Source: an uncultured Pelagibacteraceae bacterium (lineage in GTDB: Bacteria > Pseudomonadota > Alphaproteobacteria > Pelagibacterales > Pelagibacteraceae). Taken from it: DNA of 64,000 bases. The DNA is taken from the NCBI GenBank assembly GCA_902586485.1, contig CACIHO010000001.1, positions 1 to 64,000 on the forward strand, in the 5' to 3' direction. This document shows, one piece after another, positions 35,838 to 63,372 of this stretch. Position 1 is the first letter of the stretch. The number at the start of each line of letters is the position of its first letter. The position numbers and the translations under genes were made by a program. The notes beneath the pieces are model-generated. The model worked only from the letters and a program-made list of their open reading frames with translations, made no database searches and was not told the origin of the DNA.

Positions 35838-35860
35838 GGATAAAAATTAAAATTTAAAAT

Positions 35861-35893: not shown

Positions 35894-35918
35894 GATAAAT
35901 TTTGTGTAAAATATATTA

Positions 35919-36296: not shown

Positions 36297-36847
36297 TGTC
36301 AAAAGAAAATTATTTTAATAAAATAAAAGATTTACCCGAATCTTCAAGGCAGTTTATTGGTTTGATAATAATTACACTGATAGTAATCATGTCTTTTAGT
36401 ATTTTAAATGGAATTTTTGGTCAGGGAGATGACTTGGTAAAAAGAATGAAGTTAGAAGAAGAGAGAATTGCTGAAGAAAAAAAACTTAGTGAATTAATTT
36501 CTAAATTACCTTCTGGAATACTAGTTTCCTTTGATGGTACAGATCATTATAAGTTGACTGACGAGGTATATGAGCAAGTATGTAAGGCTACAAAACTAAT
36601 TCCACAAAGAGCAATTATGGGTGCTAATTTTTTAAATTTCAGAGCGCATGAGCTTTATACAATTAATGGAAATAAAATTGATGAAACTTTCGTAAAATGG
36701 GACAAAGAAAAAAGTAAATGTTTTGCTGGTTTTACAGTTAGTGGAAATAATGTAGGTGTTGACGAAAGTATAACTATAAGTGGAGAAGCTTTAAGTTTTT
36801 TAAGTACTGGAATTGATACTAGAGTTTATTTTATTAAAAATTTTTAA
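36296..36847 (+). CDS. Unknown membrane-anchored protein (183 aa)
   Basis: No family recognised. From ATG 36296, which overlaps the MORN gene stop (TAATG), the 183-residue protein has a cytoplasmic start, one membrane helix (about 21-41, FIGLIIITLIVIMSFSILNG), a charged coiled-coil-like stretch (KRMKLEEERIAEEKKLSEL) and an extracytoplasmic domain with two cysteines (QVCKATK and SKCFAGF). This start is preferred over an upstream in-frame one inside the MORN gene because of the coupling. It probably works with the MORN protein in the envelope. Confidence 0.66.
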   Translation: MSKENYFNKIKDLPESSRQFIGLIIITLIVIMSFSILNGIFGQGDDLVKRMKLEEERIAEEKKLSELISKLPSGILVSFDGTDHYKLTDEVYEQVCKATKLIPQRAIMGANFLNFRAHELYTINGNKIDETFVKWDKEKSKCFAGFTVSGNNVGVDESITISGEALSFLSTGIDTRVYFIKNF

Positions 36848-36911
36848 TGAAGAAAGGTAACATTATTAACATTTTAATTTAATTGAATTTAAGATAACTT
36901 TAAAAAAATTT

Positions 36912-37943
36912 ATGTCTGAAACTGTAATCAAATGTGAGTCGGTGTACAAAATCTTTGGAGCAAATGCCAAAAAGATGCTTGAGGAGTCTAATGGCAATGT
37001 AGATGCAAAAACTTTTCAGGAAAAAGGATGTATAGTTGGAGTTAATAATGCTTCTTTTGAAGTTGTTAAAGGAGAAATGTTAGTAGTGATGGGATTATCT
37101 GGTTCGGGTAAATCAACTTTGCTTAGATGTATATCAAGACTAACAGATGCAACAGGTGGAAAAATTTTCATAGAGGGTCAAGATTTACTTGAGTTAAATA
37201 ATAAAGAATTAATTGAACTTAGAAGAAATAAAATGGGAATGGTGTTTCAAAGTTTTGCTTTGCTGCCTCATAAAACGGTTGTTGAAAACATTGCTTTCCC
37301 ATTGCAGATAAAAGGTATTGAGATTGAAGAGAGTATTAGTAGAGCGATGGAAATGGTTAAATTAGTTGGACTTGATGGAAGAGAAAACTATTTTCCAAGA
37401 GAGCTTTCAGGCGGGCAACAACAAAGAGTAGGGATTGCAAGATCATTAGCAGTAGAACCTGATATATGGTTTTTGGATGAGCCTTTTTCTGCATTAGATC
37501 CATTAATAAGAAGAGAAATGCAAGATGAGTTTTTAAGACTTCAAGAAAAATTACAGAAAACTATTATGTTCATTACCCATGATTTTGATGAAGCATTAAA
37601 GTTAGCTGATAGAATAGCAATTATGAAAGATGGTATAATTGAACAATTAGATACACCTGCCAACATAGTATTAAATCCAGCAACTGAATATGTAAGAAAG
37701 TTTACTGAAGAAGTACCAAGAGAGAAAGTTTTGGTTATTGAGGATGTAATGGATTCTTCAAAAAAAGATAACTTGGGTGATTTAAAGGTTTCAAAAGATG
37801 ATATTATAGAAAATGTTGCAGAAAAAATTCTTACTCAAGAAAAAATAGTAGGAGTAGTAGACTCACAAAATAAAATAGTAGGTTCAATTAAACCCTCAAA
37901 AATAATCGATACAGTATTTGGAGGAAGAAAAAACGGTAGTTAA
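36912..37943 (+). CDS. tmoW: TMAO/betaine-type ABC transporter ATP-binding protein (TmoW/ProV-like)
   Basis: ProV/OpuAA-type ATPase, 343 residues. It has the family's N-terminal part (VYKIFGANAKKMLEE), Walker A GLSGSGKST (about 61-69), signature LSGGQQQRVGIARSLA, Walker B IWFLDEPFSALDP and switch His in THDFDEA. The C-terminal 70 residues are a shortened CBS-like region (KILTQEKIVGVVDSQNKIVG) of the type that senses ionic strength in osmoprotectant importers. Three bases separate it from the permease gene. With tmoX it forms a TMAO importer candidate; glycine betaine is the main alternative substrate. Confidence 0.85.
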   Translation: MSETVIKCESVYKIFGANAKKMLEESNGNVDAKTFQEKGCIVGVNNASFEVVKGEMLVVMGLSGSGKSTLLRCISRLTDATGGKIFIEGQDLLELNNKELIELRRNKMGMVFQSFALLPHKTVVENIAFPLQIKGIEIEESISRAMEMVKLVGLDGRENYFPRELSGGQQQRVGIARSLAVEPDIWFLDEPFSALDPLIRREMQDEFLRLQEKLQKTIMFITHDFDEALKLADRIAIMKDGIIEQLDTPANIVLNPATEYVRKFTEEVPREKVLVIEDVMDSSKKDNLGDLKVSKDDIIENVAEKILTQEKIVGVVDSQNKIVGSIKPSKIIDTVFGGRKNGS

Positions 37944-37946
37944 AAT

Positions 37947-40100
37947 ATGGAGTATTTAAAAAAATATCCAAAATTATTTCAATGGTTATTTTTATTAATT
38001 GTATTTTTTGCTTTATGTTTTGCAATTGATGTTCCTGAAACTTATAAATTTATAAGAGGCCAGGCTGAATTTGTTAAAGATCCAAACCAAAGTGTTTACT
38101 TTTTTCTAGGTAAAGAGGTTAGGTATTATGCCTTTGATGTATTTTGGAGATTGCCTCCACTTCTAGGATGGCTGCCTATTTGGATAAACGACTCTTTATT
38201 TTTCTTAATGAATGAATGGATGCCAATGGAGTTTTGGAACGAAGATACCCAAGAATTTAAAACTCGACCACTGCTTTTACAAATAAGTAGAAATTTAACT
38301 GCATTTATGACTTTTTTAATCGAATTAATTAGGGAAATTTTACTTGGAGGTTTAGAGACTATTGTTGCATTTACTAGCTGGGATTTTATCGATGCTTATC
38401 CTTGGTTAGAATTGCCGGGTTTACCTTGGACAATTGTTGCAGCAGGAGCAGCGATACTCTCTTATAAATTAAGTGGAAAAGGATTGGCTTTGTTTGCAGG
38501 TTTAACAATGATCTATATTTCTATATTTGGTCAATGGAAACCTTCAATGCAAACACTTTCTTTTATACTTGTTGCAGCTCCACTTTCATTTATTTTTGGT
38601 TTAGGACTTGGTATTGCGGCATACAAAAGTAAACGTGTTGAAAAAGCATTGTACCCAATTCTTCTAGTGATGCAGACTATGCCACAATATGCTGTATTAG
38701 TTCCTGCACTTGTTCTATTTGGAGTTGGTGATCACGCTGCTGTAATTATTACTATGGTTGTTGCAGTTCCGCCAATGATATTGCTTACAATTTTAGGCTT
38801 AAGAGCCATACCACCGGAAGTAATTGAAGCAGGAAGAATGAGCGGGTGTACTAATTGGCAACTAATGCTTAAGGTATTAATACCTACAGCAAGACGAGAT
38901 ATTTTAATTGGAGTTAACCAAGTTATTATGGTTTGTTTTTCAATGGCAGTTATATCTGCTTTCATTGGTGCTAAAGGTTTAGGATTTAATTTATTATTAG
39001 CTTTGAACCAACTTAATATTGGATTAGCATTGGAAGCAGGATTGTGTATTAGTCTAATTGCAATTCTTCTTGATAAAATGTCTTTGGCTTGGGCAAATAA
39101 ACAAACAGATTATTTTGGAAACCTGACATTTTTCCAAAGAAATAAAAACGTAATATTTTTCGCAGCTTCATTCCTAATTGGAATAATTCTTGCATATGTT
39201 GGGACTTTTATTTTCAAAGGTAGTTTTAATTACTTGTTTGAAATTCCACATAACAAAGGAATATCAACAGCAGATTTTTGGAATAAGGGGGTTGATTGGA
39301 TTTTTGATACTTTTTTCGTGTATATAAAAGCATTTAATACATGGTTAATTCAAGATGTGCTTCAGCCGATGAGAGCTTTATATTTAAGAATGCCTGCTGT
39401 TGCCACATTGGTACTGGCGGTTGGTGCAGGATATTTAATTGGAGGAATTCGATCAGCATTAGTTGTTGCTGCTTTGACTTTATTTATAGCATTAAGCCCA
39501 TGGTGGGATAGAGCGTTAGTTACATTATATATGGCAACTTTTGGGGTAGTTATTTCTTGTTTAATAGGATTTACAGTCGGAACATTATGTTTTCAAAATA
39601 AAAAATCAGCAGCGTTTATGCTGGGTGTTTGTGATATATTTCAAACATTCCCATCATTTGTATATCTAATTCCGGTAATGATGCTTTTTGGAATTACAGA
39701 TACTTCTGTATTAATTGCAGTAATTGTTTATGCCACAATTCCTGCAACAAGGTATACAATTGAAGGTTTAAGAAGTGTTCCAGTTGGCTTACATGAAGCA
39801 GCAACAATGTCTGGTGTAAATAAATTTCAAAGATTAACAAAAATTGAGTTTCCATTAGCATTTCCACACATGATGCTTGGTTTGAATCAAACAATAGTTT
39901 TTGCTTTATTTATGGTGATAATTGGAGCCTTCATAGGGACGGAAGATCTTGGTCAATACATTTTAAAAGCACTGTCAGATAAAAATGGAGCCGGAATTGG
40001 TTTAACTTTAGGTATCTGTGTTGCATTTATAGGATTGATCTTTGATAATTTGATTAGAACTTGGGTTGGAAAAAGAAAAAAACATCTTGGTATAGATTAG
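37947..40100 (+). CDS. tmoV: TMAO/betaine-type ABC transporter permease, double-length (TmoV/ProW-like)
   Basis: Inner-membrane permease of 717 residues that contains two ProW-like permease domains in one chain. The first EAA loop is PPEVIEAGRMSGCTNWQLML (about 290-310) and the second is PVGLHEAATMSGVNKFQRLT (about 610-630). Each is flanked by five or more helices, with additional hydrophobic segments at the N-terminus and between the halves. Such fused permeases would allow one polypeptide to replace the usual homodimer. It follows the ATPase gene by 3 bases and precedes the glycerol kinase gene by 4 bases. Confidence 0.85.
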   Translation: MEYLKKYPKLFQWLFLLIVFFALCFAIDVPETYKFIRGQAEFVKDPNQSVYFFLGKEVRYYAFDVFWRLPPLLGWLPIWINDSLFFLMNEWMPMEFWNEDTQEFKTRPLLLQISRNLTAFMTFLIELIREILLGGLETIVAFTSWDFIDAYPWLELPGLPWTIVAAGAAILSYKLSGKGLALFAGLTMIYISIFGQWKPSMQTLSFILVAAPLSFIFGLGLGIAAYKSKRVEKALYPILLVMQTMPQYAVLVPALVLFGVGDHAAVIITMVVAVPPMILLTILGLRAIPPEVIEAGRMSGCTNWQLMLKVLIPTARRDILIGVNQVIMVCFSMAVISAFIGAKGLGFNLLLALNQLNIGLALEAGLCISLIAILLDKMSLAWANKQTDYFGNLTFFQRNKNVIFFAASFLIGIILAYVGTFIFKGSFNYLFEIPHNKGISTADFWNKGVDWIFDTFFVYIKAFNTWLIQDVLQPMRALYLRMPAVATLVLAVGAGYLIGGIRSALVVAALTLFIALSPWWDRALVTLYMATFGVVISCLIGFTVGTLCFQNKKSAAFMLGVCDIFQTFPSFVYLIPVMMLFGITDTSVLIAVIVYATIPATRYTIEGLRSVPVGLHEAATMSGVNKFQRLTKIEFPLAFPHMMLGLNQTIVFALFMVIIGAFIGTEDLGQYILKALSDKNGAGIGLTLGICVAFIGLIFDNLIRTWVGKRKKHLGID

Positions 40101-40104
40101 TATT

Positions 40105-41583
40105 TTGAAAAAATTTATTGTCTCTATTGATCAAGGAACAACCTCGTCAAGAGTTGTTTTGTTTGACACTAAAGGGAACATTAAATTTATTTCTCAATAT
40201 GAATTTAAACAATACTTTCCTAGAAATGGCTGGGTAGAGCATAATCCAAATGAAATTTGGTCGACAACACTTAAAGCATTAAAACAAACAATTAAAAAAG
40301 CTACAAGTTTGAAAGGTCATATACTTACAATTGGAATTACAAATCAGAGAGAAACTACAATTTTGTGGAATAAAAAAACTGGAAAACCCATTTATAATGC
40401 AATCGTTTGGCAAGATAGAAGAACGCAGGAATATTGTAAATATCTAAAGAATAAAAATTACGAAAATACTTTTAGAAAAAAAACAGGTTTATTTATAGAT
40501 CCTTATTTTTCTGCCACTAAAATAAAATGGATTTTAGACAATATAAAAATTTCTAAAAAATTACTTAAATCAAATAATTTATTATTTGGTACGGTAGACA
40601 CCTTCTTAATCTGGAAATTGACAAAAGGTAAACATCATTTAACTGAAGCTACAAATGCAAGTAGAACTATGTTGTTTAATATAAATAATAATAAATGGGA
40701 TAATGAAATTTTACAGAAATTAAAAATTCCAAAGAATATTTTGCCAGAGGTAAAGAATTCTGCAGATAATTTTGGAAAAACAAACAAGAAAATTGTAGGA
40801 AAAGAAATACCCATTTCAGCTGTTTTAGGAGATCAACAAGCAGCTGCTGTAGGACAAGCTTGTTTTGACAGAGGATCCATAAAAAGTACGTATGGTACTG
40901 GTGCATTTATAATAATGAACACTGGATCAAAAAAAATTAATTCAAAAAATAAGTTATTAACAACAATTTGTTATAGATTGAATAACAAGACTACTTATGC
41001 TCTTGAAGGATCTATTTTCATAGCAGGAGCAGGTATACAATGGTTAAGGGATAAAATTAAATTAATAAACAACGCTTATGAAACCGAAAAAATAGCTAAA
41101 TCAACAAAAAGCAATAATGAGGTATATATAGTTCCAGCTTTTAGTGGAATAGGTGCTCCTTATTGGAGACCTGATGCTAGAGGTTTAATAACAGGACTTA
41201 CAAGAGATACAGATTGGAAAACTTTGGTGAGAGCAACAGTCGAGTCAGTTGCTTATCAAAGTTATGACTTATTTTATGCAATGAATAAAGATGGTTTAAA
41301 GCCTAGAATAGTTAAAATTGATGGTGGTATGGTAGCTAATAATTGGTTTTCTCAATTTTTGGCAGATGTAATTAATTTAAAAGTAATTCGACCTAAAGTC
41401 TTAGAAACCACTGCTCTTGGAGCAGCTTTGTTTGCAGGTTATCAAGTAGGAGAATTCAAGTCATTAAATCAGATCAAAAATACATGGAAAAAAGATAATG
41501 CTTTTAAGCCTAAAATTAATAAAAAACTTAGAAATCATATATTGCATGGTTGGAAGCAAGCGATTAAAAAAACTTTAGCATAA
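40105..41583 (+). CDS. glpK: Glycerol kinase
   Basis: FGGY-family kinase, 492 residues, that makes glycerol 3-phosphate from glycerol and ATP. Family marks are VSIDQGTTSSR at the start, ITNQRETTILWNKKTG, YNAIVWQDRR, STYGTGAFIIMNTG and DGGMVANNWFSQFLAD. Start is a TTG at 40105, only 4 bases after the permease stop; no closer ATG keeps the DQGTT motif. It is followed after 10 bases by the glycerol-3-phosphate dehydrogenase gene. Placement after a transporter operon raises the idea that glycerol or glycerol-linked compounds enter the same pathway, but this is not shown. Confidence 0.93.
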   Translation: MKKFIVSIDQGTTSSRVVLFDTKGNIKFISQYEFKQYFPRNGWVEHNPNEIWSTTLKALKQTIKKATSLKGHILTIGITNQRETTILWNKKTGKPIYNAIVWQDRRTQEYCKYLKNKNYENTFRKKTGLFIDPYFSATKIKWILDNIKISKKLLKSNNLLFGTVDTFLIWKLTKGKHHLTEATNASRTMLFNINNNKWDNEILQKLKIPKNILPEVKNSADNFGKTNKKIVGKEIPISAVLGDQQAAAVGQACFDRGSIKSTYGTGAFIIMNTGSKKINSKNKLLTTICYRLNNKTTYALEGSIFIAGAGIQWLRDKIKLINNAYETEKIAKSTKSNNEVYIVPAFSGIGAPYWRPDARGLITGLTRDTDWKTLVRATVESVAYQSYDLFYAMNKDGLKPRIVKIDGGMVANNWFSQFLADVINLKVIRPKVLETTALGAALFAGYQVGEFKSLNQIKNTWKKDNAFKPKINKKLRNHILHGWKQAIKKTLA

Positions 41584-41593
41584 ATATAAAAAA

Positions 41594-42550
41594 ATGAAAA
41601 AAATATTAATTGTTGGTGCGGGAGCTATGGGAGCTGCCTTCTCAATACCATTGTTGGATAATGGTCACTCAGTTGCTCTAACAGAGCCATACAATTTTAG
41701 ATTACTAGAAAAATTGAATTCAAAAAAAAAAATTCACCCATCATTAAATATAAATTTACCAAAAAAATTGAAAATAATTAAGTTTTCAAATGAAACTTTA
41801 AGTCGCAAATGGGACTTAATTGTAATTGCTGTGAGTTCTTTAGGAATAGACTTGATTGGAAAAAATCTATCAAAAATTAAAAATAAAACACCTATTTTGG
41901 TATTAACAAAAGGTCTTAAATTAGACGGTAGAAATTTAATTTCAATGTCTAGCTTATTAAAAAAGTATAATAAAAATTTAAATGTTTCAGTTTTGAAAGG
42001 TCCATGTTTAGCAAATGAATTAGCTAAAAAAGTTAGAAGCTTCACAGTGATCGCAAACAAAAATATTAATACTACCAAAAAAATTGGAAAATTAATTTCT
42101 ACAAATTATTATCAAACTGAATTTAGTAGAGATGTTAATGGAGTCGAATTTTTGTCAGCTATAAAAAATATTTATTCTATGATAATTGGGTCTGGACAAT
42201 GGCACAATACATCATCAGCATTATTTAGAAAATCAATAGATGAAATGAAATATCTTTCAAATTATTTTAAGGGCAAAAAGGAAACTGTTTATGGTTTGGC
42301 AGGTTTAGGAGATTTATACGTAAGTGCAATGGGGGGAAGAAATAGTAAAATGGGAGAGTACCTTGGCAAAGGATATACTTTTACCCAAGCAAAGAAAAAA
42401 TTTATGAGAAATGATACAGTAGAAGGTGCTGATTTAGCAACAGAAATTGCCCCTTTTGTATTTAAAAAAATTAACAAAAGAAGAATTCCTTTAATGATCT
42501 CTTTATTAGAGGCAATTGTTAAAAATAAAAAATTAAAAATTAAATATTAA
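41594..42550 (+). CDS. gpsA: Glycerol-3-phosphate dehydrogenase [NAD(P)+]-like
   Basis: A 318-residue GpsA-type dehydrogenase linking dihydroxyacetone phosphate and glycerol 3-phosphate, cytosolic. NAD site ILIVGAGAMGAAF at the start, LKGPCLANELAK, the catalytic Lys in EFLSAIKNIYSM and GLAGLGDLYVSAMGGRNSKMG are all present. Slightly short (GpsA is usually about 330) but complete. Paired with glpK, it forms a glycerol-to-triose-phosphate route or supplies G3P for lipids. Most SAR11-type genomes would also have a housekeeping gpsA elsewhere; whether this is a second copy cannot be seen here. Ends 4 bases before the convergent tmm. Confidence 0.84.
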   Translation: MKKILIVGAGAMGAAFSIPLLDNGHSVALTEPYNFRLLEKLNSKKKIHPSLNINLPKKLKIIKFSNETLSRKWDLIVIAVSSLGIDLIGKNLSKIKNKTPILVLTKGLKLDGRNLISMSSLLKKYNKNLNVSVLKGPCLANELAKKVRSFTVIANKNINTTKKIGKLISTNYYQTEFSRDVNGVEFLSAIKNIYSMIIGSGQWHNTSSALFRKSIDEMKYLSNYFKGKKETVYGLAGLGDLYVSAMGGRNSKMGEYLGKGYTFTQAKKKFMRNDTVEGADLATEIAPFVFKKINKRRIPLMISLLEAIVKNKKLKIKY

Positions 42551-42554
42551 TATT

Positions 42555-43886
42555 TTATTTATTTAAAAAAGTTTCCATAGAGTCATCCATCGCTGTTTCC
42601 CAAGGTGTATGATGAATTGGTGCAACTGATCCAGTCACAGGAGATGAAAACGATTTATTTCTATAAGTTAGAATATCCTCTACTTTATGATGTTCCCATT
42701 CTTTGAAATGTTTTCTAATTAATTCAAAATCAATTTTAGGATAATCAGACATATCATGAAGCTCTTTGGTATATTCTGTTTGAAAATCAATCATTTGATC
42801 AGGATTTTCTAATTTTTCCTCCATAGAAACCCACTTATTAATATCTTTATCTATTTCGTCATTACCAGGCATTTTTATTTTACCCATTATCACATCTCTT
42901 GCGTACCAAGCCTGACAGTCAAACATGTTAAATGTGTGAAATTGATCCTGCATTCCTAAATATAAAAGTTTATGATTATCTTGCCACACAACTCCTTTAT
43001 AAAGCTTTGGTGGATATAATCTGTTATGTGTTTTTAATTTTAAACTTTCATCTAAAAAAGGAAAATGATGCAGATACCCAGTACACAAAATGACTACTTC
43101 GGCATTTTGCTCTGTTCCATCTTTAAATATAGCTTTTTTTCCATCTAATTTTTCTAAATAATGTACTTCTTTCATGCCATCTGGCCATTTAAAACCCATT
43201 GGATTATGTCTGTAACCAATTGTTACGCTTTTAGCTCCGTATTTATTACATTGCAGAGCTACATCTTCAGCTGAATAACTGCTACCTAAAACAATTACAT
43301 CTTTTCCTCTAAATTCTTCTGCATCTCTGAAATCATGCGAATGCATTATTCTTCCAGGGAAAGAGTTCATTCCCTCATATTCAGGAATAAAAGGTACAGA
43401 AAAATGTCCTGTACTGACCACCAAATAATCAAAAGTGTCACTTAATATTTTATTATTAACTTTATCTTGATAGCTAATCTCAAACTTATCATTTTTGTAA
43501 ACAGTATTTGTGACCCTAGTATTAAATTTAATTTTGCTTTTTATATTACCTTTACTAACTCTTCCCAAAATATAATTTTGAAGGACTTCTCTTGGCGGAA
43601 AAGATGGAATTGGCTTACCAAAATGTTCATCAAAAGAATAATCAGCAAATTCCAAACACTCTTTAGGTCCATTAGACCACAGGTATCTATACATACTGTT
43701 GGGAACAGGATCTCCATATTGATCTGAACCAGTTCTCCAGTTGTAGTTCCATAAACCACCCCAACTTTCTTGTTTTTCAAAGCAAACTATTTCAGGAATT
43801 TTTTCTCCTTTTTTTTCTAAATGCTCAAATGCTCTTAAAATTGAAAGTCCACATGGACCAGCACCAATGATTGCTACTTTTGACAT
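42555..43886 (-). CDS. tmm: Trimethylamine monooxygenase (Tmm), bacterial FMO
   Basis: NADPH- and FAD-dependent enzyme that oxidises trimethylamine to TMAO, 443 residues from ATG 43886. This start is chosen because MSKVAIIGAGPCGLSILRAF opens the FAD fold and an AGGA site lies upstream; a further in-frame start would add 16 residues without support. Marks match characterised Tmm: FEKQESWGGLWNYNWRTG, MYRYLWSNGPKECLEFADY, FGKPIPSFPPREVL, the FMO-type signature near GHFSVPFIPEY, and NADPH fold VIVLGSSYSAEDVALQC. It is separate from tdm by 9 kb but in the same island. Divergent from the Fe-alcohol dehydrogenase gene. Confidence 0.92.
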   Translation of the reverse strand: MSKVAIIGAGPCGLSILRAFEHLEKKGEKIPEIVCFEKQESWGGLWNYNWRTGSDQYGDPVPNSMYRYLWSNGPKECLEFADYSFDEHFGKPIPSFPPREVLQNYILGRVSKGNIKSKIKFNTRVTNTVYKNDKFEISYQDKVNNKILSDTFDYLVVSTGHFSVPFIPEYEGMNSFPGRIMHSHDFRDAEEFRGKDVIVLGSSYSAEDVALQCNKYGAKSVTIGYRHNPMGFKWPDGMKEVHYLEKLDGKKAIFKDGTEQNAEVVILCTGYLHHFPFLDESLKLKTHNRLYPPKLYKGVVWQDNHKLLYLGMQDQFHTFNMFDCQAWYARDVIMGKIKMPGNDEIDKDINKWVSMEEKLENPDQMIDFQTEYTKELHDMSDYPKIDFELIRKHFKEWEHHKVEDILTYRNKSFSSPVTGSVAPIHHTPWETAMDDSMETFLNK

Positions 43887-43963
43887 AGAATTTTTCCTAT
43901 CATTAATAAATTTATAAATATATCTTAATACCAATTTTTAAAAAAATAAAATTATATTTTGTT

Positions 43964-47711: not shown

Positions 47712-48968
47712 ATGCAAAAATATTCTATATTTAACTTAGTTAAAAACGCTTTTTCTAACCATGAGAATTGGGATTTGGCATGGAAAGACCCAACACCAAA
47801 AGAGCAATATGACGTTGTAATTATAGGTGGTGGAGGCCATGGACTGGCTACAGCATATTATCTCGCTAAAGAACATAATATTACTAATGTTGCAATTATA
47901 GAGAAAGGTTGGATAGGTGGTGGAAACGTTGGACGTAACACAACGATAATTAGATCAAATTATATGCATGATGAAAATGGTCTTTTCAGTGAGTTTGGAA
48001 TGGATTTATGGAGAAAGATGAGTCAAGATTTGAACTACAACGTAATGTTCTCACCAAGAGGAATAATTAATCTTGCACACTCCGATGCACAAATGAACGC
48101 TTATGCCAGAAGAGGAAATTCAATGAGATTAAATGGCATTGATGCAGTTTTACTTAATAGAGAACAAGTTAAAGAAATAATTCCAATGGCTGATTTTTCT
48201 GAAAATGTGAGGTTTCCTATTTTTGGAGGATTGATGCAGCCAAGTGCTGGCACAGCAAGACATGATGCAGTTGCTTGGGGTTATGCGCGACAAGCAGACT
48301 CAATGGGTGTCGATATAATTCAAAACTGCGAGGTAACAGGGTTCGATGTTGTGGCAGGTAAAATAAAAGGAATAAGAACCTCTAGAGGAAATATTAAAGC
48401 TAAAAAAGTTGGCATTTGTGTTGCTGGAAGCACAAATATTTTAGCAGAAAAATTAAACATGACTTTACCGATTGAAACTCATTTACTTCAAGCATGTGTT
48501 TCTGAACCAGTTAAACCCGTATTAGATAATGTAGTTACATTTGGTGCGGGACATTTTTATGTTAGTCAATCAGATAAAGGTGAGATGGTAATGGGTGGTG
48601 ATCTTGATGGATATAATAGTTATGCTCAAAGAGGAAATTTACCAACATTGCAACACGTATTAACTGAAGGAATAGCAATGATGCCGTTTTTGAGTAAATT
48701 AAAAATGCTTAGAACATGGGGTGGTATTATGGATATGTCAATGGACGGTTCTCCAATTATTGATAAAACACATATAGAAGGCTTATATTTAAATTGTGGA
48801 TGGTGTTATGGAGGATTTAAAGCTACACCTGCTTCGGGTTGGACATTCGCTCATACGATTGCGCAAGACAGAGTTCATGAGTTAAACGCTGGTTATAGTT
48901 TAAATAGATTTAGTACAGGTAATCTTATTGATGAAAAAGGACTTGGTACTAAAACTTGGATATCATAA
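47712..48968 (+). CDS. soxB: Sarcosine oxidase beta / N-methylglutamate dehydrogenase subunit A-like
   Basis: FAD/FMN-bearing beta subunit of a heterotetrameric sarcosine-oxidase-type enzyme, 418 residues. YDVVIIGGGGHGLATAYYLA (from 33) is the FAD fold; EKGWIGGGNVGRNTTIIRSNY and the C-terminal NCGWCYGGFKATPASGWTFA match SoxB, in which covalent FMN attaches to a His of the NVGRNTT-type region's neighbour. The next three genes are the other subunits. Two roles fit: sarcosine oxidation from glycine betaine, or MgdA of N-methylglutamate dehydrogenase (MgdABCD). Nearby synthase genes favour the second without proof. I give the sox name because the fold family is certain and the substrate is not. 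Confidence 0.83.
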   Translation: MQKYSIFNLVKNAFSNHENWDLAWKDPTPKEQYDVVIIGGGGHGLATAYYLAKEHNITNVAIIEKGWIGGGNVGRNTTIIRSNYMHDENGLFSEFGMDLWRKMSQDLNYNVMFSPRGIINLAHSDAQMNAYARRGNSMRLNGIDAVLLNREQVKEIIPMADFSENVRFPIFGGLMQPSAGTARHDAVAWGYARQADSMGVDIIQNCEVTGFDVVAGKIKGIRTSRGNIKAKKVGICVAGSTNILAEKLNMTLPIETHLLQACVSEPVKPVLDNVVTFGAGHFYVSQSDKGEMVMGGDLDGYNSYAQRGNLPTLQHVLTEGIAMMPFLSKLKMLRTWGGIMDMSMDGSPIIDKTHIEGLYLNCGWCYGGFKATPASGWTFAHTIAQDRVHELNAGYSLNRFSTGNLIDEKGLGTKTWIS

Positions 48969-49238
48969 ATGCTTTATATAAATTGCCCACATTGTGGAAT
49001 GAGATCCCAAAATGAATTTTCATATGGTGGAGATGCAAGTGTGAAAAGGCCGGAGTTAAATAAAGAGGTTTCTGATCAAGAATGGGATGATTTCGTTTAC
49101 AATAGAAAAAGTTTAAGAGGTAAGCATTTAGAGCTGTGGCAACATATTTCTGGATGTAGACAATGGATAAAAGTTGAAAGAGATACCTCAACGCATGAAA
49201 TTTTCAGAACCTTTAAAGCCGAAGAGGAAGTTGCTTAA
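48969..49238 (+). CDS. soxD: Sarcosine oxidase delta / N-methylglutamate dehydrogenase subunit B-like
   Basis: Small zinc-binding subunit, 89 residues, the usual SoxD size. The N-terminus MLYINCPHCGMRSQNEFSYGG supplies Cys6 and Cys9; His59 and Cys63 (WQHISGCRQW) complete a zinc site. SoxD bridges the alpha and beta subunits. It follows soxB with no gap (TAAATG) and shares one base with soxA (TAATG). The MgdB equivalence applies if the complex oxidises N-methylglutamate. Confidence 0.88.
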   Translation: MLYINCPHCGMRSQNEFSYGGDASVKRPELNKEVSDQEWDDFVYNRKSLRGKHLELWQHISGCRQWIKVERDTSTHEIFRTFKAEEEVA

Positions 49239-52234
49239 TGAATCAAGCTTTTAGAATTGGAGATGGAGGATTAGTAAATAGGGATAAAAAATTATCTTTT
49301 AAATTTAATGGTAAAAGTTACTTTGGTTTTGAAGGTGATACATTGGCATCTGCTTTATTAGCAAATGGTGTTCATTTAGTTGGAAGAAGTTTTAAGTATC
49401 ATCGACCTAGAGGTTTCTTTGGGGCAGGAGTTGATGAACCATATGCAATAGTTCAGCTTTACAGAAATGGTGAAACAGAACCTAATATAAAAGCAACAGA
49501 ACAGGAACTCTTTGAAGGTTTGGAAGCAAAAAGTGTTAATTGTTGGCCTAGTGTAAATTTCGATATTGGCGCAATAAATAATTTTTTAAAAATTTTCTTG
49601 CCGGCAGGATTTTATTATAAAACATTTATGTGGCCAAAAAGTTTTTGGTACAGAATTTACGAACCTTTTATTAGAAAAGCTGCGGGTTTAGGTGTTGCTT
49701 CAACAAAACACGATAATGAGAGGTATGAGCATAAATATGAATACTGTGATTTACTTATTGCAGGATCTGGTCCTTCAGGATTGTCTAGTGCATATGCTGC
49801 TGCAAAAAATGGAGCGAGAGTTATTCTTGCTGAAGATAAACCAAGGTTTGGTGGATCTTTACTAACTAGTGATGTCAATATTGGGAATCAATCAGGAAAA
49901 GATTGGGCCGAGGGAATAATTGCTGAACTCAAAACTATGCCAAATGTAGTTGTGAAAAATAGATCTCAAATTTTTGGATATTATGATCATAACATGCTTG
50001 TAATGTCAGAAAAAGTTAGTGATCATCTTCCAAAAACAAAAAAATATCATCCTAATAAAAGACTTTGGTACATTAGAGCAAAAGAGGTTTTAATATCCTC
50101 AGGATCAATAGAGAGACCAATAGTTTTTGGTAACAATGATACACCTGGAGTTATGCTATCATCTGCTGCAAAAGAGTATTTAAAAGTTTATGGAGTACTA
50201 GTTGGAAAAAAGCCTTTAGTATTTACAAATAATGATAGTGGATATGAGACAGCAATTGAGTTTAAAAAGCATGGAGTTGATCCAATTGTTCTAGATTCAA
50301 GAAAAAACCCAAAATCAGAAATAATTGATGAAGCAAAAAATTTAGGAATTAATATTAAAAATTCATATGTTGTGGTTGCCGCGCAAGGTTATAAAAAAGT
50401 AAAATCAGCTGAAATTGCGAGCATCTCAGATGATAAAAAAAAACTTGGAAAAATTGAAAGTATAAATTGTGATTGTATATGTGTATCTGGTTTTTGGACA
50501 CCAACAATCCACTTAGCCTCTCAATCAGGAAATAAGACAAAGTTTAAAGAAGAAATTGATGCATTTGTTCCTGGAGTGTCTAAACAAAATGAAACTACTT
50601 TAGGATCAGCTAATGGAGTATTTTCACTAGAGGAAACTTTAAAAACTTCATTTTCTGCAGGTAGTGAATTATCAAAAAAAATTACTAAAAATGATAACAA
50701 TATAGCTATTCCGAATGTTGTTGAAAAGAAATCCTCTCAACATGATAAGTTTTGGTGTGTTCCATTGCCAAAAGGTAAAAATTATAAAAGATTTTTAGAT
50801 TTTCAAAATGATGTAGCAGTATCTGATGTAGAAATTGCTTTAAGAGAAGGATATCGATCAATAGAACATGTTAAAAGATACACCACTCTAGGAATGGCAA
50901 CAGACCAAGGAAAAACAAGTAATTTAAACGGATTGCAATTAGTATCTGAAATTGAAAACAAAGTTGTTCCTGCAGTAGGTCATACCACTTTTAGACCACC
51001 TTATACTCCTGTGTCTATTGGCGCAATAGTGGGGAGAGAGGTTGGAAAACACTCAAAACCAACAAGAAAATCTCCAATGCATTCATGGCATGAAAAAAAT
51101 AATGCAGTTTTTGTTGATGCAGGTGTCTGGTTAAGACCTAGATATTATAAAAGAGGAAATGAAACCTTATTTGAGGCATCTAAAAGAGAGGCTAAAAATG
51201 TAAGAACAAATGTTGGAGTTTGTGACGTAACAACTTTAGGAAAAATTGATGTCAAAGGTCCTGATTCAGCTGAGCTTTTAAATAGAGTTTACACTAATGC
51301 ATGGTTAAAGTTACCAGTTGGAAAAGCTAGATACGGAGTAATGTTAAGAGAGGATGGAATTGTAATGGATGATGGTACAACAACAAGAATTTCTGAAAAT
51401 CATTATCATATGACAACTACTACAGCTCAAGCAGCAAACGTTCTCTCTCATTTAGAATATTATTTGCAATTAATTTGGCCTGAATTAAATGTGAATGTAG
51501 TTTCAACTACAGAACAATGGGCTGGAGCAGCTATCGCTGGACCTAAATCTCGAGATTTATTACAAAAATTATTTCCAAATTCTGATGTATCAAATGAAGG
51601 CTTACCTTTCATGGGCTATATGGAAGGAGATTTTTTTGGTATTAAAGCAAGAATATTTAGAATTTCGTTCTCAGGAGAGCTTGCATATGAGGTAAATGTT
51701 GAATCTGACTATGGAAACTTTATGTGGGAAAATATCATGAAAGTTGGTGAGGAATTTGGTATTCAACCATATGGAACTGAAGCATTATCTACTCTTAGAA
51801 TTGAAATGGGACATGTTGCTGGATCAGAACTTGACGGTAGAACAATTCCATATGATAACGCTTTAGAAGGTCTTGTTAGTAAAAAGAAAGATTTTATTGG
51901 AAAAAGATCATTACAACGATCTGCATTTACTGCTGAAGATAGACAAAGAATAGTTGGGGTAGTTCCTTTAGATAGACAAACAAGTATTCCTGAGGGCTCT
52001 CATTTAGTTAAGGATGATAAAGCGCCATTACCAAATCCTAAATTAGGTCATATCTCTGCATCTTGTTGGAGTGTTGAATATGATAATCCTTTTTCTTTGG
52101 CAATTTTGAAAGATGGAAAAAACATGATAGGTCAAAAGCTTTTTGCAATGTCGCCACTTAAAAATAAAGTAATACCAGTTGAGATAGTTTCATCACATTA
52201 CGTAGACCCAAAAGGTGAAAGAGTTAGGTCATGA
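49238..52234 (+). CDS. soxA: Sarcosine oxidase alpha / N-methylglutamate dehydrogenase subunit C-like
   Basis: Large subunit of 998 residues, normal for SoxA/MgdC. Domains in order: a ferredoxin-like N-terminal domain ([20 protein letters not shown], about 22-110), an NAD-binding fold ([21 protein letters not shown], from about 169), a middle region with [11 protein letters not shown] and a C-terminal GcvT-type THF domain (about 620-990, with [22 protein letters not shown] and [11 protein letters not shown]). The THF domain catches the methyl carbon as methylene-THF, which connects this enzyme to fhs next door. Flanking genes overlap by 1 and 4 bases. Confidence 0.88.
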
Positions 52235-52818
52235 AATTAAACTCAGCTTTATCAAATGTTTATGCAAAAGGTCAATTTGGAGATTATGAAGGTAAAAATG
52301 AAAATGATTTACTTAAAATAACTGAAATCAAAAATTTATTAATTGTTCAAATAGTTAAGTATAAAAATTCCTCAGTTTCATTTGAAGGTATTGATATTGA
52401 TGGTTTAAAATTAAAAAATGAACCTTTATCTGTAGTATTTAATGAAACTACAAGAATTATGTGGAATGGACCAAAAAACTGGCTCTTAGTTTCAACAAAA
52501 AAAGATTTAATTAAAAATGTATCAGATAATTTAAAACATACAGATTTTGCCATAACAGATTTGTCTCATTCTAGAGCTATTATTGAAATCGAGGGAAATG
52601 ATACGATGGAAGTTTTGAAAAAAGGATGTCCTTTTAATTTTAATACATTAGATAAAAATAATTCAATAAACTCAACTTATAATGGAATATCTTTTACTGT
52701 TGATAGGTTGGGTGAAAATCCAAATAAGGTGAGGTTATTTGCATTAAGAAGCTTTGGCGAATCTTTATATCATTCTGTCACAGACGCATCTCTAGAGTTT
52801 GGCTTTAAATCTCTATAA
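52231..52818 (+). CDS. soxG: Sarcosine oxidase gamma / N-methylglutamate dehydrogenase subunit D-like
   Basis: Fourth subunit, 195 residues, GcvT-like fold of the SoxG type: [27 protein letters not shown] and [17 protein letters not shown] near the C-terminus. Sequence conservation is low, but length and position are exactly as in soxBDAG and mgdABCD operons, and it overlaps soxA by four bases (ATGA). It closes the operon, 10 bases before a convergent permease gene. Confidence 0.82.
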
Positions 52819-57912: not shown

Positions 57913-58878
57913 ATGAATTATAAAATCGATAATCTTCAATATTGTAATTGGTCTAGGAAAATCTTTGAGATCAATAGATCTGCCGGATTAGATGCTGTAC
58001 ATGTTACCATTGTCTACCATGAAGATTTTGATGAATTACAACTTGAAATTAAAAAATGGGAAAAATTATTTCAAGAAAATTCTGATTTAATTTTTCTTGG
58101 TAAGAATTCCCAAGATATTGATAAAGCTAATAAAGAAAACAAAACTGCAATATTTTTTGGTTTTCAAAACTGTTCACCAATTGAAGATGACATAAATCTT
58201 GTTGAAAAGGTTCATCAATTAGGATGCAGATTTATGCAACTTACTTATAATAACCAGTCTTTGCTAGCAACAGGTTGTTATGAAAAAGTAGATAGCGGAG
58301 TTACAAATTTTGGACGTGAGGTTATAAGAGAAATGAATAGAGTTGGCCTCGTGGTAGACATGTCACATTCTGCAGAAAAAAGTACTCTAGATGCAATCGA
58401 ATTCAGTGAAAAACCAATAGCAATTACTCATGCGAATCCTTCTTTTTGGCATCCAGCTAAAAGAAATAAATCCTCAGATTTATTAAAAATTTTGAGTGAT
58501 AGTGGTGGTATGTTGGGTTTATCATTATACCCTCATCACTTAAAAGATAACACAAATTGTACTCTGGATAGTTTTTGTGAAATGGTGGCAAAAACAGCTG
58601 AAATAATGGATGTAAAAAAAATAGGAATAGGATCAGATCTTTGTTTAGATCATCCAGATACTGTTGTTGAATGGATGAGAAATGGTTCTTGGTCTAAAAG
58701 TAAAAATTATGGTGAAGGTTCGAAAAATAAACCAGGTTTTCCTAAACAACCCGAATGGTTTCCTGATGCAAGAGGGTTCTCAAATATTGAAAAAGGTCTA
58801 AAAAAAGCAGGTTTTTCAGATACCGAGACACATGGAATACTTGGAAATAACTGGTACAGTTTTTATAAAACTATTTAA
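57913..58878 (+). CDS. M19 membrane-dipeptidase-like protein
   Basis: Amidohydrolase-fold protein of the renal dipeptidase (M19) family, 321 residues from ATG 57913; a TTG at 57892 could add seven residues. DMSH (His152), THANPSF (His173) and GIGSDLCLDHP are typical. Two usual metal ligands look altered: the N-terminal HxD is absent, and the Glu-containing motif reads GFQNCSPIED. This GFQN subgroup seems distinct from true dipeptidases. It starts an operon with an unknown 553-residue protein, a DUF3726-like protein and a 55-residue CxxC protein, with gaps of 2 bases or less. Related M19 genes sit in dimethylglycine catabolic clusters of Pseudomonas, as I recall. Confidence 0.76.
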   Translation: MNYKIDNLQYCNWSRKIFEINRSAGLDAVHVTIVYHEDFDELQLEIKKWEKLFQENSDLIFLGKNSQDIDKANKENKTAIFFGFQNCSPIEDDINLVEKVHQLGCRFMQLTYNNQSLLATGCYEKVDSGVTNFGREVIREMNRVGLVVDMSHSAEKSTLDAIEFSEKPIAITHANPSFWHPAKRNKSSDLLKILSDSGGMLGLSLYPHHLKDNTNCTLDSFCEMVAKTAEIMDVKKIGIGSDLCLDHPDTVVEWMRNGSWSKSKNYGEGSKNKPGFPKQPEWFPDARGFSNIEKGLKKAGFSDTETHGILGNNWYSFYKTI

Positions 58879-58880
58879 TT

Positions 58881-60542
58881 ATGAAAGTTCAATTAAGAGA
58901 CCCGAATAAGATAATGAAATTATCAAGGCTAGGATCTTTTCATCAATCAAAATTATCTTTTTTAAGAAGTTTTCTTAATGAATTTAAAGAGTGGGATTAT
59001 AAGAGAGATTTGTTTAATTTAAATGAAAATGGTTTTGGAGAAGCTGTTTATTCATTAACAAAAAATAAAAGAGTTTATTCTTTAATTTGTTTTGCAAATG
59101 AAATCAAAGATAAAGAAAGATCAGACAGAGTTATTGCAACAAAATGGGATGCAGCTTTTACATTACATGATGGAGTTCCTACAAAAAAAGACATTGAAAG
59201 ATTAAAAAATGAAGTTCCAAAACAAGAAGTTGGAAGACTTTCTTATAAAGAATTAACTTTATCGAGAGCAAACAAATCAATAAGAATTTATAATCATGTA
59301 CTTGAAAGTTTGAGCAAAGGTAAGCAGCCAGATTTAAACTTATTATCAAAAGTAGGCTATTTATATAGGACTACAGCAGTATATGGCTCAGGCAAATTTG
59401 GTCTTGCAGATCGATTCAGAATTAAAAATCGTGAAGAAATTAATGGTCCATTCAGATTAGAAATGATGTTGGTTTATTTGGTAAGACAATTTACTTTTGA
59501 TCAAGTTAATCATGTTGCTTATCATAAAAATCCAAAAACAGCTGTTAAGCTAGATGATAATATTTGTAAAAACTTAGGAATAGGTAATTCCACAGGCTTG
59601 GGTATGGCTCCATTTATAGTCAATCATCCAACTTTATTAAATAATTGGATTTTAAGTAGAGAAAAAGCACTTAAGAAAATTAGAGAAATCAAAGATGTAG
59701 AAAGTCAAGATAGCGATTTGTTTATAGATTGTGTAAAAAAATCATTAAAAAATATTACAAGCTGGAATACTGATAGCGAATATCAGCAAAAAAAAATTTC
59801 TTCATTATTAAAGGATGTTGAAAAATTCTTAAATTTTATAGATAAAGATTTTAATTTTAAGAGCGAATATCCTTTTAACAAAATATATCAATGGTTAGAG
59901 GACAATACTTGTGAGGAATGCATTGAATACATAGTGTCAATAATGATGGAACCTTACAACGATATTATAAATCCTTTGGTAAAAGAAATGAGTTCAGACG
60001 AAGAAAAATATTTTAATATTCCAACGTATAGAAAAGTTGAAGAATTGCGTAATATAATTGAAGCAAAGTATCCTTATATTTTAGATATTAATTTTGAAGA
60101 AAAAGAAAATAATAAAAACTTTTGGTTTATTTCAAAAAATAAAGAAGAACCTAGATTGGCGGATCGTTTTGAAGAACATGGATCAGAATTAGAACAGCCT
60201 TTAGCAATAGCAAGAGATATAAAAAAACTTTATGACAAATTATTAGTTTCAAAAAATAGTTTAACTATTGCTGAGTTTTTAACATCAAATTCTGAGTTAA
60301 GACATGTTGTAAGAAGAGCGTTCATTGCAGAAAAATTTCCTTATTCAGAAATACAAGATAATACAATTGGTAAAGATTTAATGCCAATTGATATGCTAAG
60401 ACTAAAATTATCTTTTTTTGGGGCATTAAAATTTGATCCACGATCTGACAAATGGTTAAGAATTTGCATGTTCCAAGGTGCTCCACTTCCAAATGAGTTA
60501 AAAAGTTATGACGAGCAGTGGGTATATAAAACCAATATTTAA
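58881..60542 (+). CDS. Unknown large conserved protein (553 aa)
   Basis: No family recognised. Soluble, mostly helical, no signal peptide. Ordered features: MKVQLRDPNKIMKLSRLGSF (1-20), a strand-rich part with VIATKWDAAFTLHDGVPTKK, VYGSGKFGLADRFRI (basic, Gly-rich loop), a helical centre, GIGNSTGLGMAPF, and a C-terminal EPRLADRFEEHGSEL. The short Gly-rich motifs and charged pairs suggest an enzyme or nucleotide-binding protein, but no known loop fits. It starts 2 bases after the dipeptidase-like gene and ends 2 bases before the DUF3726-like gene, so the three products are likely functional partners. Confidence 0.66.
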   Translation: MKVQLRDPNKIMKLSRLGSFHQSKLSFLRSFLNEFKEWDYKRDLFNLNENGFGEAVYSLTKNKRVYSLICFANEIKDKERSDRVIATKWDAAFTLHDGVPTKKDIERLKNEVPKQEVGRLSYKELTLSRANKSIRIYNHVLESLSKGKQPDLNLLSKVGYLYRTTAVYGSGKFGLADRFRIKNREEINGPFRLEMMLVYLVRQFTFDQVNHVAYHKNPKTAVKLDDNICKNLGIGNSTGLGMAPFIVNHPTLLNNWILSREKALKKIREIKDVESQDSDLFIDCVKKSLKNITSWNTDSEYQQKKISSLLKDVEKFLNFIDKDFNFKSEYPFNKIYQWLEDNTCEECIEYIVSIMMEPYNDIINPLVKEMSSDEEKYFNIPTYRKVEELRNIIEAKYPYILDINFEEKENNKNFWFISKNKEEPRLADRFEEHGSELEQPLAIARDIKKLYDKLLVSKNSLTIAEFLTSNSELRHVVRRAFIAEKFPYSEIQDNTIGKDLMPIDMLRLKLSFFGALKFDPRSDKWLRICMFQGAPLPNELKSYDEQWVYKTNI

Positions 60543-60544
60543 TA

Positions 60545-61156
60545 ATGAAATCACTGAGTGAAATTGAAACTACTGTTAAAAGAGCTTCAAAGGCAGCAGG
60601 ATATTCTTGGGGAGTTTCTGAGGAAACAGGAAAAAGTATAAGGTTGTTAGAGTTATTTAGTTTACCGGGTATTAAGCACCTTAATGAATATTTTAATGAA
60701 AAAAACAAAAGTAAATTTGAAAATTTAAATTTAATTAGTGAAGATAACTCTTCATCAAAAAATCCTTACTGCCCAATTACTTTAGGTGTTAGTTTTTTAG
60801 ATCAAATAAATGTTTTAGAAAATTTAAAAAAAATTGAATTCAAAAATGTTGCTTATCCAATAATTTTTATTTCCTTTATAAGTCGTTCATCAGAAATTAT
60901 TGGAAAAAAAATTTATGTAAAAATGGATGAAAAAAAAATTTTACTAAATTTAAATGTAAATATAAGTTCAAATTTTATTGAACAAGAATTTCCAAAATTT
61001 GTGAATACAATTGAGGTAAATCTACTCGAAAATGAAGACAACTTTACAGACGATGAATGGAATAATTTATACAAGTTATCTGAAGAAACCTTTGTCGAAG
61101 AAAGCGACAGTTTAAAAGAAGGTGCGGCAGGTGCTGGTTTGACTGATAATGACTGA
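60545..61156 (+). CDS. DUF3726-like protein
   Basis: A 203-residue protein whose start, SEIETTVKRASKAAGYSWGVSEETGKSIRLLELF, fits the DUF3726 pattern (helix, AxGxxWGxxEEAG, helix). It ends in a Gly/Ala-rich EGAAGAGLTDND tail. No signal peptide or membrane segment is seen. Function unknown. It overlaps the 55-residue CxxC gene by 8 bases and follows the 553-residue gene by 2, so is tightly coupled to both. Confidence 0.66.
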   Translation: MKSLSEIETTVKRASKAAGYSWGVSEETGKSIRLLELFSLPGIKHLNEYFNEKNKSKFENLNLISEDNSSSKNPYCPITLGVSFLDQINVLENLKKIEFKNVAYPIIFISFISRSSEIIGKKIYVKMDEKKILLNLNVNISSNFIEQEFPKFVNTIEVNLLENEDNFTDDEWNNLYKLSEETFVEESDSLKEGAAGAGLTDND

Positions 61157-61316
61157 TAAAACTGATGAAAAATATCTTAATACAGATACTGAAGAATTAA
61201 ACAATATTTGTGATGAATGCAAAGAGGAAGACGAGAGTGTCACTCAAAATTTAATTCTTACTGGATTTAAATTATGTAAATCTTGTAGAGTATCTAAGAC
61301 GATTTTTCCTCTTTAA
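61149..61316 (+). CDS. Small zinc-ribbon-like protein (55 aa)
   Basis: Short gene, ATG at 61149 inside the DUF3726-like gene's end and TAA at 61314-61316. The 55-residue product is acidic at the start (MTDKTDEKYLNTDTEELNN) and contains two CxxC pairs, Cys21/Cys24 (CDEC) and Cys43/Cys46 (CKSC), the pattern of a zinc ribbon. The four cysteines in so short a protein, exact overlap with the upstream gene and shared reading direction argue for a real gene. It ends 4 bases into the convergent Yip1-like gene. No assigned function. Confidence 0.68.
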   Translation: MTDKTDEKYLNTDTEELNNICDECKEEDESVTQNLILTGFKLCKSCRVSKTIFPL

Positions 61317-62013: not shown

Positions 62014-63372
62014 TTAGCCTTTTACAACTTCTCTTGTATTTGCGTTAAAAGACTCTTTGAATGGAATATCCACAACTACAGCATCTACAGGTGTTCCTGG
62101 AGTATCTGAGTATTTTTCTGGAAGATGAACTTTAAACTTAGTTCCAACTTTATTTTTTGGAAATCCATTAGGGTTTAAAGTTCCATCAAACGGAACGTAT
62201 CCCATAGCAATATTGGTTTTCTTTTCAGGATGCCACCATGGTGAAGTAAGAAATCCAACTGGATCTCCACCACTTTCTGGTGATACAAGCCAAAAGTCTG
62301 GCGCATAATCATCGATTGGTTTACCGCCTAACTCCATTCCAACTAATTGAAGTTTATATGGTTTTTTTCCAGCTTTAATATCTGCTCCCATTTTCTCTAA
62401 AGCAGCTTTACCAACATAATCAGCTTTTTTATTCCATTCACCTTTACCAGATAATGAAACTTGATAACCTAAATTACATTGAAATGGATTATGTTGTTGA
62501 TCCATGTCTTGCCCCCAAGAAAGAATACCTGCTTGTATTCTTCTATGGTGTGCAGGTGCAATCACCATCAATTTATGTTTTTTTCCTGCATCTAATACCG
62601 CATTCCACATATCTTCAGCATATAAAGTAGCATTTCTTAAATATATCTCATAACCAGCTTCTCCTGAAAAACCAGATTGAGAAATTACACAACTTCTTCC
62701 CCCAACTGTTGCTTCCGCTAATCCATAGAAAGGCATATTATCAAAATCAACTTGGTCACCACAAAGGTCTTGCATTAAAGCTTTTGACTTAGGACCTTGA
62801 ATTTGTACTGGACATGCATCAATTTCTTCAATTGTACAATTAAATCTTCCATCTGCATTTACACCCTGTAAATACATTCCGATATCAGAGTCTGATAATG
62901 AAAACCAAAATTCATCTTCTGAAATTCTTAAAAGAATTGGATCGTTTAAAACACCACCATAAGTATTACACAATATTACATATCTTGCTCTCATAGGAGA
63001 AATTTTTGTTGCGTCTCTAGTTATAACGTAGTCGGTAAATTTTTCTGCATCTGGACCTTTAACTCTTATTTGTCTTTCAACAGCCACGTTCCACATTGTT
63101 ACATGATTAACAATAGCGTCGTACTCAACCATTGCTCCACCATCTTCAGGTTTTACATAACCTCTTGGATGATAAATTCGATTGTATACTGTTGCTCTCC
63201 AACAACCAGCCTGCATTGATAAATGCCAATAAGGTGATTTTCTTACCCTTGTTGAAATTAGCATTTCAACTTTAGTTGGCCCACTTTGTCTTAAATTATA
63301 TGGTACTTCTCTATCTGATTGATCAACAGAAGTAACATGTTTTAGTTTAGTATAGTCAAATTCATTAGACAT
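62014..63372 (-). CDS. GcvT-like THF-dependent methyltransferase / demethylase
   Basis: A 452-residue protein of the GcvT/DmdA/LigM superfamily that would move a methyl group from an unknown substrate to THF. Marks are VKGPDAEKFTDYVITRD, VQIQGPKSKALMQDL, SQSGFSGEAGYEIYLR and RRIQAGILSWGQDMD. It is longer than DmdA (about 370) and lacks its N-terminal pattern. Size and a MetF-like partner resemble LigM-type O-demethylases, whose gene also sits beside metF. The start overlaps the MetF-like gene by 8 bases, so the pair is one unit. Substrate is open: a methylated osmolyte, sulfonium or methoxy compound. Confidence 0.78.
   Translation of the reverse strand: MSNEFDYTKLKHVTSVDQSDREVPYNLRQSGPTKVEMLISTRVRKSPYWHLSMQAGCWRATVYNRIYHPRGYVKPEDGGAMVEYDAIVNHVTMWNVAVERQIRVKGPDAEKFTDYVITRDATKISPMRARYVILCNTYGGVLNDPILLRISEDEFWFSLSDSDIGMYLQGVNADGRFNCTIEEIDACPVQIQGPKSKALMQDLCGDQVDFDNMPFYGLAEATVGGRSCVISQSGFSGEAGYEIYLRNATLYAEDMWNAVLDAGKKHKLMVIAPAHHRRIQAGILSWGQDMDQQHNPFQCNLGYQVSLSGKGEWNKKADYVGKAALEKMGADIKAGKKPYKLQLVGMELGGKPIDDYAPDFWLVSPESGGDPVGFLTSPWWHPEKKTNIAMGYVPFDGTLNPNGFPKNKVGTKFKVHLPEKYSDTPGTPVDAVVVDIPFKESFNANTREVVKG

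Follow-up and report, generated by a model that had tools for sequence, protein, structure and literature searches.

The 64,000-nucleotide stretch of DNA analysed here (the window; positions 1 to 64,000 of contig CACIHO010000001.1, from an uncultured SAR11 bacterium of the family Pelagibacteraceae) carries a cluster of four genes, here named A, B, C and D, which spans positions 57913-61316 with every gene on the + strand. Genes A, B and C appear to be the conserved core of an operon for the catabolism of an N-methylated, betaine-like heterocycle, most probably homarine, whose degradation would end in N-methylglutamate and then, by the action of N-methylglutamate dehydrogenase (Mgd), in glutamate. 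The probability of this reading is put at about 0.65. Homarine (N-methylpicolinate) is a nitrogen compound and a common algal osmolyte, and few marine cells are as abundant as SAR11 bacteria. A homarine operon of marine bacteria, homABCDER, was reportedly described by Ferrer-Gonzalez et al. in 2026 (Nat Microbiol 11:1531); the name homABCDE was not found in the literature searched. The window operon is probably a reduced SAR11 variant of that system with an added small protein, D. The initial annotation of this DNA had presented the operon as undescribed, whereas it is most probably the one reported in 2026.

The cluster is compact. Gaps of 2 bases separate A from B and B from C, and C overlaps D by 8 bases, in agreement with the packing first noted (Table 1). 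An in-frame TTG is found at 57892, before the ATG of A. The arrangement goes beyond chance: of 107 distinct SAR11 loci, 106 have A, B and C one after another on a single strand (110 of 111 before the removal of four duplicates). All of these loci were fetched for holding B, and the sole locus lacking A (L151) is cut at a contig end. The same order recurs in other alphaproteobacterial families, though B is there only ~37-46% identical, and in divergent form in Gammaproteobacteria too. B was found in 40 of the 61 genomes examined from the genus and order of the window, in 40 of 289 genomes of its class, in 22 of 299 genomes of a phylum sample in which some class genomes are re-used, and in 168 of 72,556 plasmid records. 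Its best 80 matches on named contigs come from SAR11-type records, almost all of which bear the title Pelagibacteraceae or Pelagibacterales. DUF3726, the domain family of C, was found in 32 of the 289 class genomes. Among the eight B-positive genomes without it are some whose B match is fragmentary or weak, and in one of the eight (G318) a custom model identified a weak C beside B (L043). An A-like gene at E 1e-30 or better was found in 15 of the 17 B-positive genomes checked for it, a set chosen for B matches that were weak, partial or A-less and supplemented by genomes in which A had already been seen. Neither G124 (68% complete) nor G328, where B itself matches only at E 4e-4, yielded one, and the best A of G182 is just 38% identical.

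This conservation of order and co-occurrence makes it very probable, as judged from sequence, that the products of A, B and C are partners, which upholds the initial proposal. The observation named beforehand as telling against partnership was a wide occurrence of B or DUF3726 proteins without the M19 gene (A) or without each other. This was not borne out: C was found in no genome lacking B (32 of 32 genomes), and an M19 gene lies near B in 50 of 53 loci outside the main SAR11 set. The dependence is unequal in the two directions: plasmid records with A-type M19 genes outnumber those with B (308 against 168), and one A-type gene, on a plasmid of Paracoccus jeotgali (L212), is 62% identical to the A of the window and has RidA and LysR genes nearby, with no B or C near it. 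It may be an isolated or degenerate relative of the A-B-C operon.

The wider operon was characterized in those 53 loci, which were mostly fetched for B (L208 and L213 for A) and include close relatives as well as one SAR11 locus (L205); L212 was excluded for having no B. A recognisable C follows B in 48 of them, and an aldehyde dehydrogenase (ALDH) gene is near B in 25, a LysR regulator in 23, an Ldh gene in 19 and a RidA gene in 16. ALDH, M19, C and B occur together in 25 loci, 22 of them with LysR, and the complete set of ALDH, M19, B, C, Ldh and LysR is found in eight (L161, L162, L167, L173, L187, L193, L209 and L213). A transporter of the BCCT or ProX type is present in 24 of the 46 loci that remain when L205 and six distant rhizobial/haloarchaeal-type loci are removed. 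Annotated examples of the operon come from Phaeobacter, Aminobacter, Aliiroseovarius, Sulfitobacter, Shinella and a record labelled Roseateles, and in Vibrio campbellii (L163) the order is LysR, then RidA-ALDH-M19-BCCT-B-C. Beyond the end of the window, ProW- and ProX-type transporter genes are found at 64153-66106. The setting of methylated-compound catabolism in which the cluster was first placed is upheld.

No ALDH, Ldh or LysR gene is found in the A-B-C-D operon of the window. In a tree, read for topology only, the B of the window groups with other SAR11 rows and with f32, a family of the same class, both loci of which have ALDH-M19-B-C together with a betaine transporter and Ldh. Because of this grouping with full-type loci, and because its genus has only distant ALDH and Ldh genes, the window operon is best seen as a reduced form. 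The f32 operon ALDHs are 55% identical to the Roseobacter operon ALDH, which scores best with 2,5-dioxovalerate dehydrogenase (470 bits, below the cut-off of 750). A window ALDH at 9465-10898 was weighed as a candidate for the missing operon enzyme and rejected, as it reaches 213-217 bits against the f32 operon ALDHs. The fullest Roseobacter-type operons equal the reported homABCDER by count, with five structural genes plus LysR, a comparison made by number alone; the marine alphaproteobacterial spread and a probable link to Mgd are also alike. The window copy differs from homABCDER in this composition, having D in place of ALDH, Ldh and LysR.

Protein A belongs to the Peptidase_M19 (membrane dipeptidase) family (PF01244; E 7.3e-69, 232.8 bits against a gathering score of 26, over profile positions 38-315 only). 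An alignment of 58 A proteins was inspected at the metal-ligand columns, chosen from the alignment with structure 2i5g and from what is known of M19 enzymes. Like the family, A keeps two His (56/57 and 58/58 rows) and an Asp (58/58) of the metal site. It differs from active dipeptidases, which have an HxD motif and a bridging Glu in a binuclear zinc site: the expected place of HxD reads L-Q-Y (L in 57/57 and Y in 52/57 rows) and the position of the bridging Glu is Gln in all 57 rows with a residue there. The absence of the N-terminal HxD and the GFQN at the place of the Glu had been noted correctly for the window protein, and they hold across the subfamily. The nearest solved structure, 2i5g (E 2.7e-57), has GFQN in common with A and likewise lacks HxD at the aligned place. 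As the variant site is uniform, the alignment points to an altered function of this subfamily rather than to decay.

The lack of a recognised family for protein B was borne out, as no significant match was found in Pfam, NCBIfam or PDB, by sequence or by fold. Its AlphaFold2 model (pLDDT 86.9, pTM 0.89) gives a best Foldseek E of 1.1 and a best VIA Z of 5.4 over 104 residues against PDB; these searches used the whole chain, and the lack of a hit is no proof of a new fold. The weak matches, such as the JetC head and V-ATPase-C, are none of them above noise. A reading of the segment AVYGSGKFG as a P-loop was dropped because its spacing does not fit.

Protein C is a DUF3726 protein (PF12525; E 4.4e-23, 81.4 bits against a gathering score of 22.1), a family on which nothing was found in the literature searched. 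Its model (pLDDT 87.4, pTM 0.77) is that of a shrunken Ldh_2 (type II malate/lactate dehydrogenase) fold, the fold of YiaK, AllD and DpkA. The 15 best entries of the VIA search have Z of 8.8-10.3 (27 chains at Z of at least 8) and the next entry is at 4.2; their titles name malate/lactate, ureidoglycolate, sulfolactate, YiaK and piperideine-carboxylate enzymes (3uoe is titled only “dehydrogenase”). The best Foldseek E is 0.023, and hhalign of C with the Ldh_2 profile is in weak agreement (E 2.6e-5, probability 75, over 63 N-terminal columns). Ldh_2 enzymes have ~330 residues, whereas the shorter C lacks roughly 100 of the middle part (~107 of 267 chain residues of an Ldh_2 structure are unpaired in the superposition). 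The SHG motif, invariant in six operon-type and related Ldh proteins, is also missing from the C alignment, so that C has neither feature of an intact Ldh_2 enzyme. Its initial description as a domain of unknown function is thus right as to DUF3726 but not in the sense of a domain without relatives. Conservation in C is among the highest in its tail (GAGAGLxDND), for which the model nevertheless shows no order; this combination suggests docking of the tail into a partner, possibly B.

A link to Mgd is suggested by mgd-type genes found 5 kb upstream of A-B-C in the window (47712-52818). On plasmids of the Roseobacter-type bacteria Phaeobacter porticola and Aliiroseovarius crassostreae the operon adjoins soxBDAG-type genes and a helix-turn-helix regulator gene. 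This resembles the tmaR-mgdABCD arrangement given for Ruegeria pomeroyi in PMC13390433, the regulators being likened by type. The same paper cites Mgd, from the 2026 report, as a participant in homarine catabolism (PMC13390433). In G050, a genome of family f2, an operon-type Ldh gene, C, B, A, divergent soxBDAG-type genes and an ALDH gene of another type lie within 11 kb, and gmaS was not found in this genome (87% complete). Within genus g1 a window-type mgd gene is found in 18 of 23 genomes with B and in 6 of 14 without it; in ten g1 genomes, most of them incomplete, a window-type mgd was found and gmaS was not, and seven of these genomes hold B. In the class sample, soxA-family genes are present in 37 of 40 genomes with B and 75 of 249 without, counts in which the genomes are related and Mgd is not separated from sarcosine oxidase.

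A scheme of our own, modelled on the trigonelline pathway (tgnABCDE), could unite these components. It follows the same logic of N-methylpyridinium ring opening, N-formyl intermediate, ALDH and hydrolase. B, helped by C, would reduce and open the pyridinium ring of homarine with O2 to yield N-formyl-N-methyl-2-amino-5-oxopent-2-enoate (C7H7NO2 + 2H + O2 -> C7H9NO4). B would thereby replace a TgnA/TgnB-like oxygenase, of which none was noticed here, no search for one having been made. A, with its amidohydrolase fold, would remove the formyl group (C7H9NO4 + H2O - HCOOH -> C6H9NO3), and ALDH would oxidise the C5 aldehyde (C6H9NO3 + H2O - 2H -> C6H9NO4). An Ldh_2-type imine reductase would then form N-methylglutamate (C6H9NO4 + 2H -> C6H11NO4), which Mgd would convert to glutamate and methylene-tetrahydrofolate. 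In the window organism, other ALDH and Ldh paralogues would serve in place of the operon enzymes. Masses balance at each proposed step. The scheme would explain the joint presence of an ALDH closest in score to 2,5-dioxovalerate dehydrogenase, a reductase of the DpkA fold family, RidA and an amidohydrolase: the best score of the ALDH suits a C5 semialdehyde intermediate, and the RidA genes near 16 of the 53 loci suit enamine or imine intermediates. A bolder version, which we hold only tentatively, is that B founds an enzyme family of new fold which, with a DUF3726 partner that is a shrunken dehydrogenase and with the Gln-variant M19 protein, opens and deformylates N-methylpyridinium rings, SAR11 doing so without dedicated ALDH and Ldh and the rhizobial/haloarchaeal branch acting on another ring such as that of trigonelline.

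Several observations weigh against the homarine assignment. The operon genes were not paired with individual hom genes, and no cofactor site was recognised in B. The best ALDH and Ldh matches in the genus of the window are at most 37% (at E 1e-80) and 35% identical, respectively. The family models for soxBDAG-type genes do not separate Mgd from sarcosine oxidase, and mgd/sox-type genes are near B in only 6 of the 53 loci. A window-type mgd gene is found in only 2 of 17 B-positive f2 genomes (the others have a 46-50% identical paralogue, and one has none), which counts against a strict need for it, and G039 holds A, B, C, Ldh and ALDH together with only an mgd paralogue. Kinship among the genomes makes the association tests not independent. 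Finally, neither ALDH nor Ldh is near B in 12 of the 46 loci (L179 among them is cut at a contig start), so that substrates may vary among loci. This last count is also in keeping with a core that acts on another betaine-type N-heterocycle (trigonelline, proline betaine or similar) and on homarine only in some lineages, as are the two B genes of some Roseobacter-type genomes and the distant rhizobial-type clusters, whose B is ~24-30% identical and which have other transporters, RidA and in some cases an aminotransferase and a succinate-semialdehyde dehydrogenase. We regard this as unlikely for the window operon, as its B groups with f32 operons having ALDH, Ldh and a betaine transporter nearby, and mgd-type genes are close to A-B-C.

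Considerably less probable is the idea of the initial annotation that A-B-C are accessory genes of glycine betaine/dimethylglycine demethylation. It would fit with 2i5g, which we take to be PA5396 of Pseudomonas aeruginosa, as the nearest structure of A, and with Rieske oxygenase-, homocysteine methyltransferase- and FAD oxidoreductase-like genes at 66380-71015 (assigned by eye, without a family search). The region of Shinella L209 also has NADH:flavin oxidoreductase and electron transfer flavoprotein genes that could be of the dgc kind. The association itself is real, a dipeptidase gene being placed before dgcAB in Vibrio natriegens and P. aeruginosa in PMC12093977. Its extension to the present operon is doubtful: no gene named dgcA or dgcB is found in the annotated loci examined, and the 40 best of 308 plasmid records have M19 genes 60-62% identical to A that lie, where examined, nearly all in ALDH-M19-B-C-type loci (L212 is the exception). 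About as improbable, or slightly more so, is a role of A-B-C in the maturation or modification of a metal site, cofactor or enzyme for a neighbouring dehydrogenase, rather than as enzymes acting on a nutrient. B without a recognisable enzyme family, the resemblance of C to a remnant of Ldh_2 that has lost catalysis and kept a flexible, conserved tail, and possible zinc binding by D would suit such a role; the company of betaine transporters, ALDH, Ldh and a LysR regulator, and the uniform site kept by A, argue against it. The initial interpretation as a whole is partly supported.

As far as we have seen, four points are new: the uniform variant site of the M19 subfamily, the assignment of DUF3726 to the Ldh_2 fold, the failure of B to match any known fold, and the absence of dedicated ALDH and Ldh from the genus of the window. 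If the homarine reading is true, a protein family wholly without annotation, a DUF and a wrongly annotated “dipeptidase” would be tied to one carbon/nitrogen flux, which the genus of the window would run without dedicated ALDH and Ldh, and B would possibly give ring-opening chemistry a new fold in which no cofactor site can be recognised.

Table 1. Genes of the A-B-C-D cluster and the proposed functional partner upstream (window coordinates).
Feature	Position	Strand	Description
A	57913..58878	+	M19-family protein with variant active site; 321 aa from ATG
B	58881..60542	+	553 aa, no known family; AlphaFold2 model without significant PDB match
C	60545..61156	+	203 aa, DUF3726; predicted shrunken Ldh_2 fold with conserved tail GAGAGLxDND
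D	61149..61316	+	55 aa, two CxxC; overlaps C
Sarcosine-oxidase-family complex (soxBDAG type), probable N-methylglutamate dehydrogenase mgdABCD	47712..52818	+	Identified by family models; proposed functional partner, 5 kb upstream

Protein D, with its two CxxC motifs, may bind zinc. Nothing in it exceeds the Pfam cut-off, the nearest family being the ZZ finger (E 0.054). The motifs noted initially are present, but D is not a fixed member of the operon: it follows C in 89 of the 107 distinct SAR11 loci (92 of 111 with duplicates), and 17 SAR11 loci with room for D do not have it. Eight of these are the f2 loci, of the same order, where D is absent from 8 of 8; D was not sought outside SAR11.

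Other gene arrangements were found around A-B-C. In four f2 loci (L278, L281, L282 and L285) a conserved gene of 199 aa, whose product starts MYTPINQYIERLENIS, adjoins the core. Distant B-C-(M19) clusters occur in rhizobial-type bacteria and Alloyangia (L165, L166, L185, L210, L211) and in Natrinema (L164), with B ~24-32% identical. They carry other transporters and RidA, some also an aminotransferase and a succinate-semialdehyde dehydrogenase, and possibly encode a related ring-opening pathway for another compound. In Roseobacter-type family f24 (L171, L172, L175, L176), M19-B-C or B copies, some of them second copies, have no ALDH or Ldh nearby, and their substrate may differ.

The window also contains a methylated-amine island at 25868-30568 and 32428-43934, with gmaS-type glutamine-synthetase-like and mgs-type glutamate-synthase-like genes and genes for a trimethylamine N-oxide (TMAO)-demethylase-like protein, a transporter and a flavin monooxygenase (names partly assigned by eye). 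In some relatives that retain mgd, gmaS was not found. Downstream of D, a DmdA-like protein of the GcvT family is encoded at 62014-63372 (224.6 bits against the 410-bit cut-off for dimethylsulfoniopropionate (DMSP) demethylase), overlapped by a short MTHFR-like gene at 63365-64093, and both genes recur beside the operon in several relatives.

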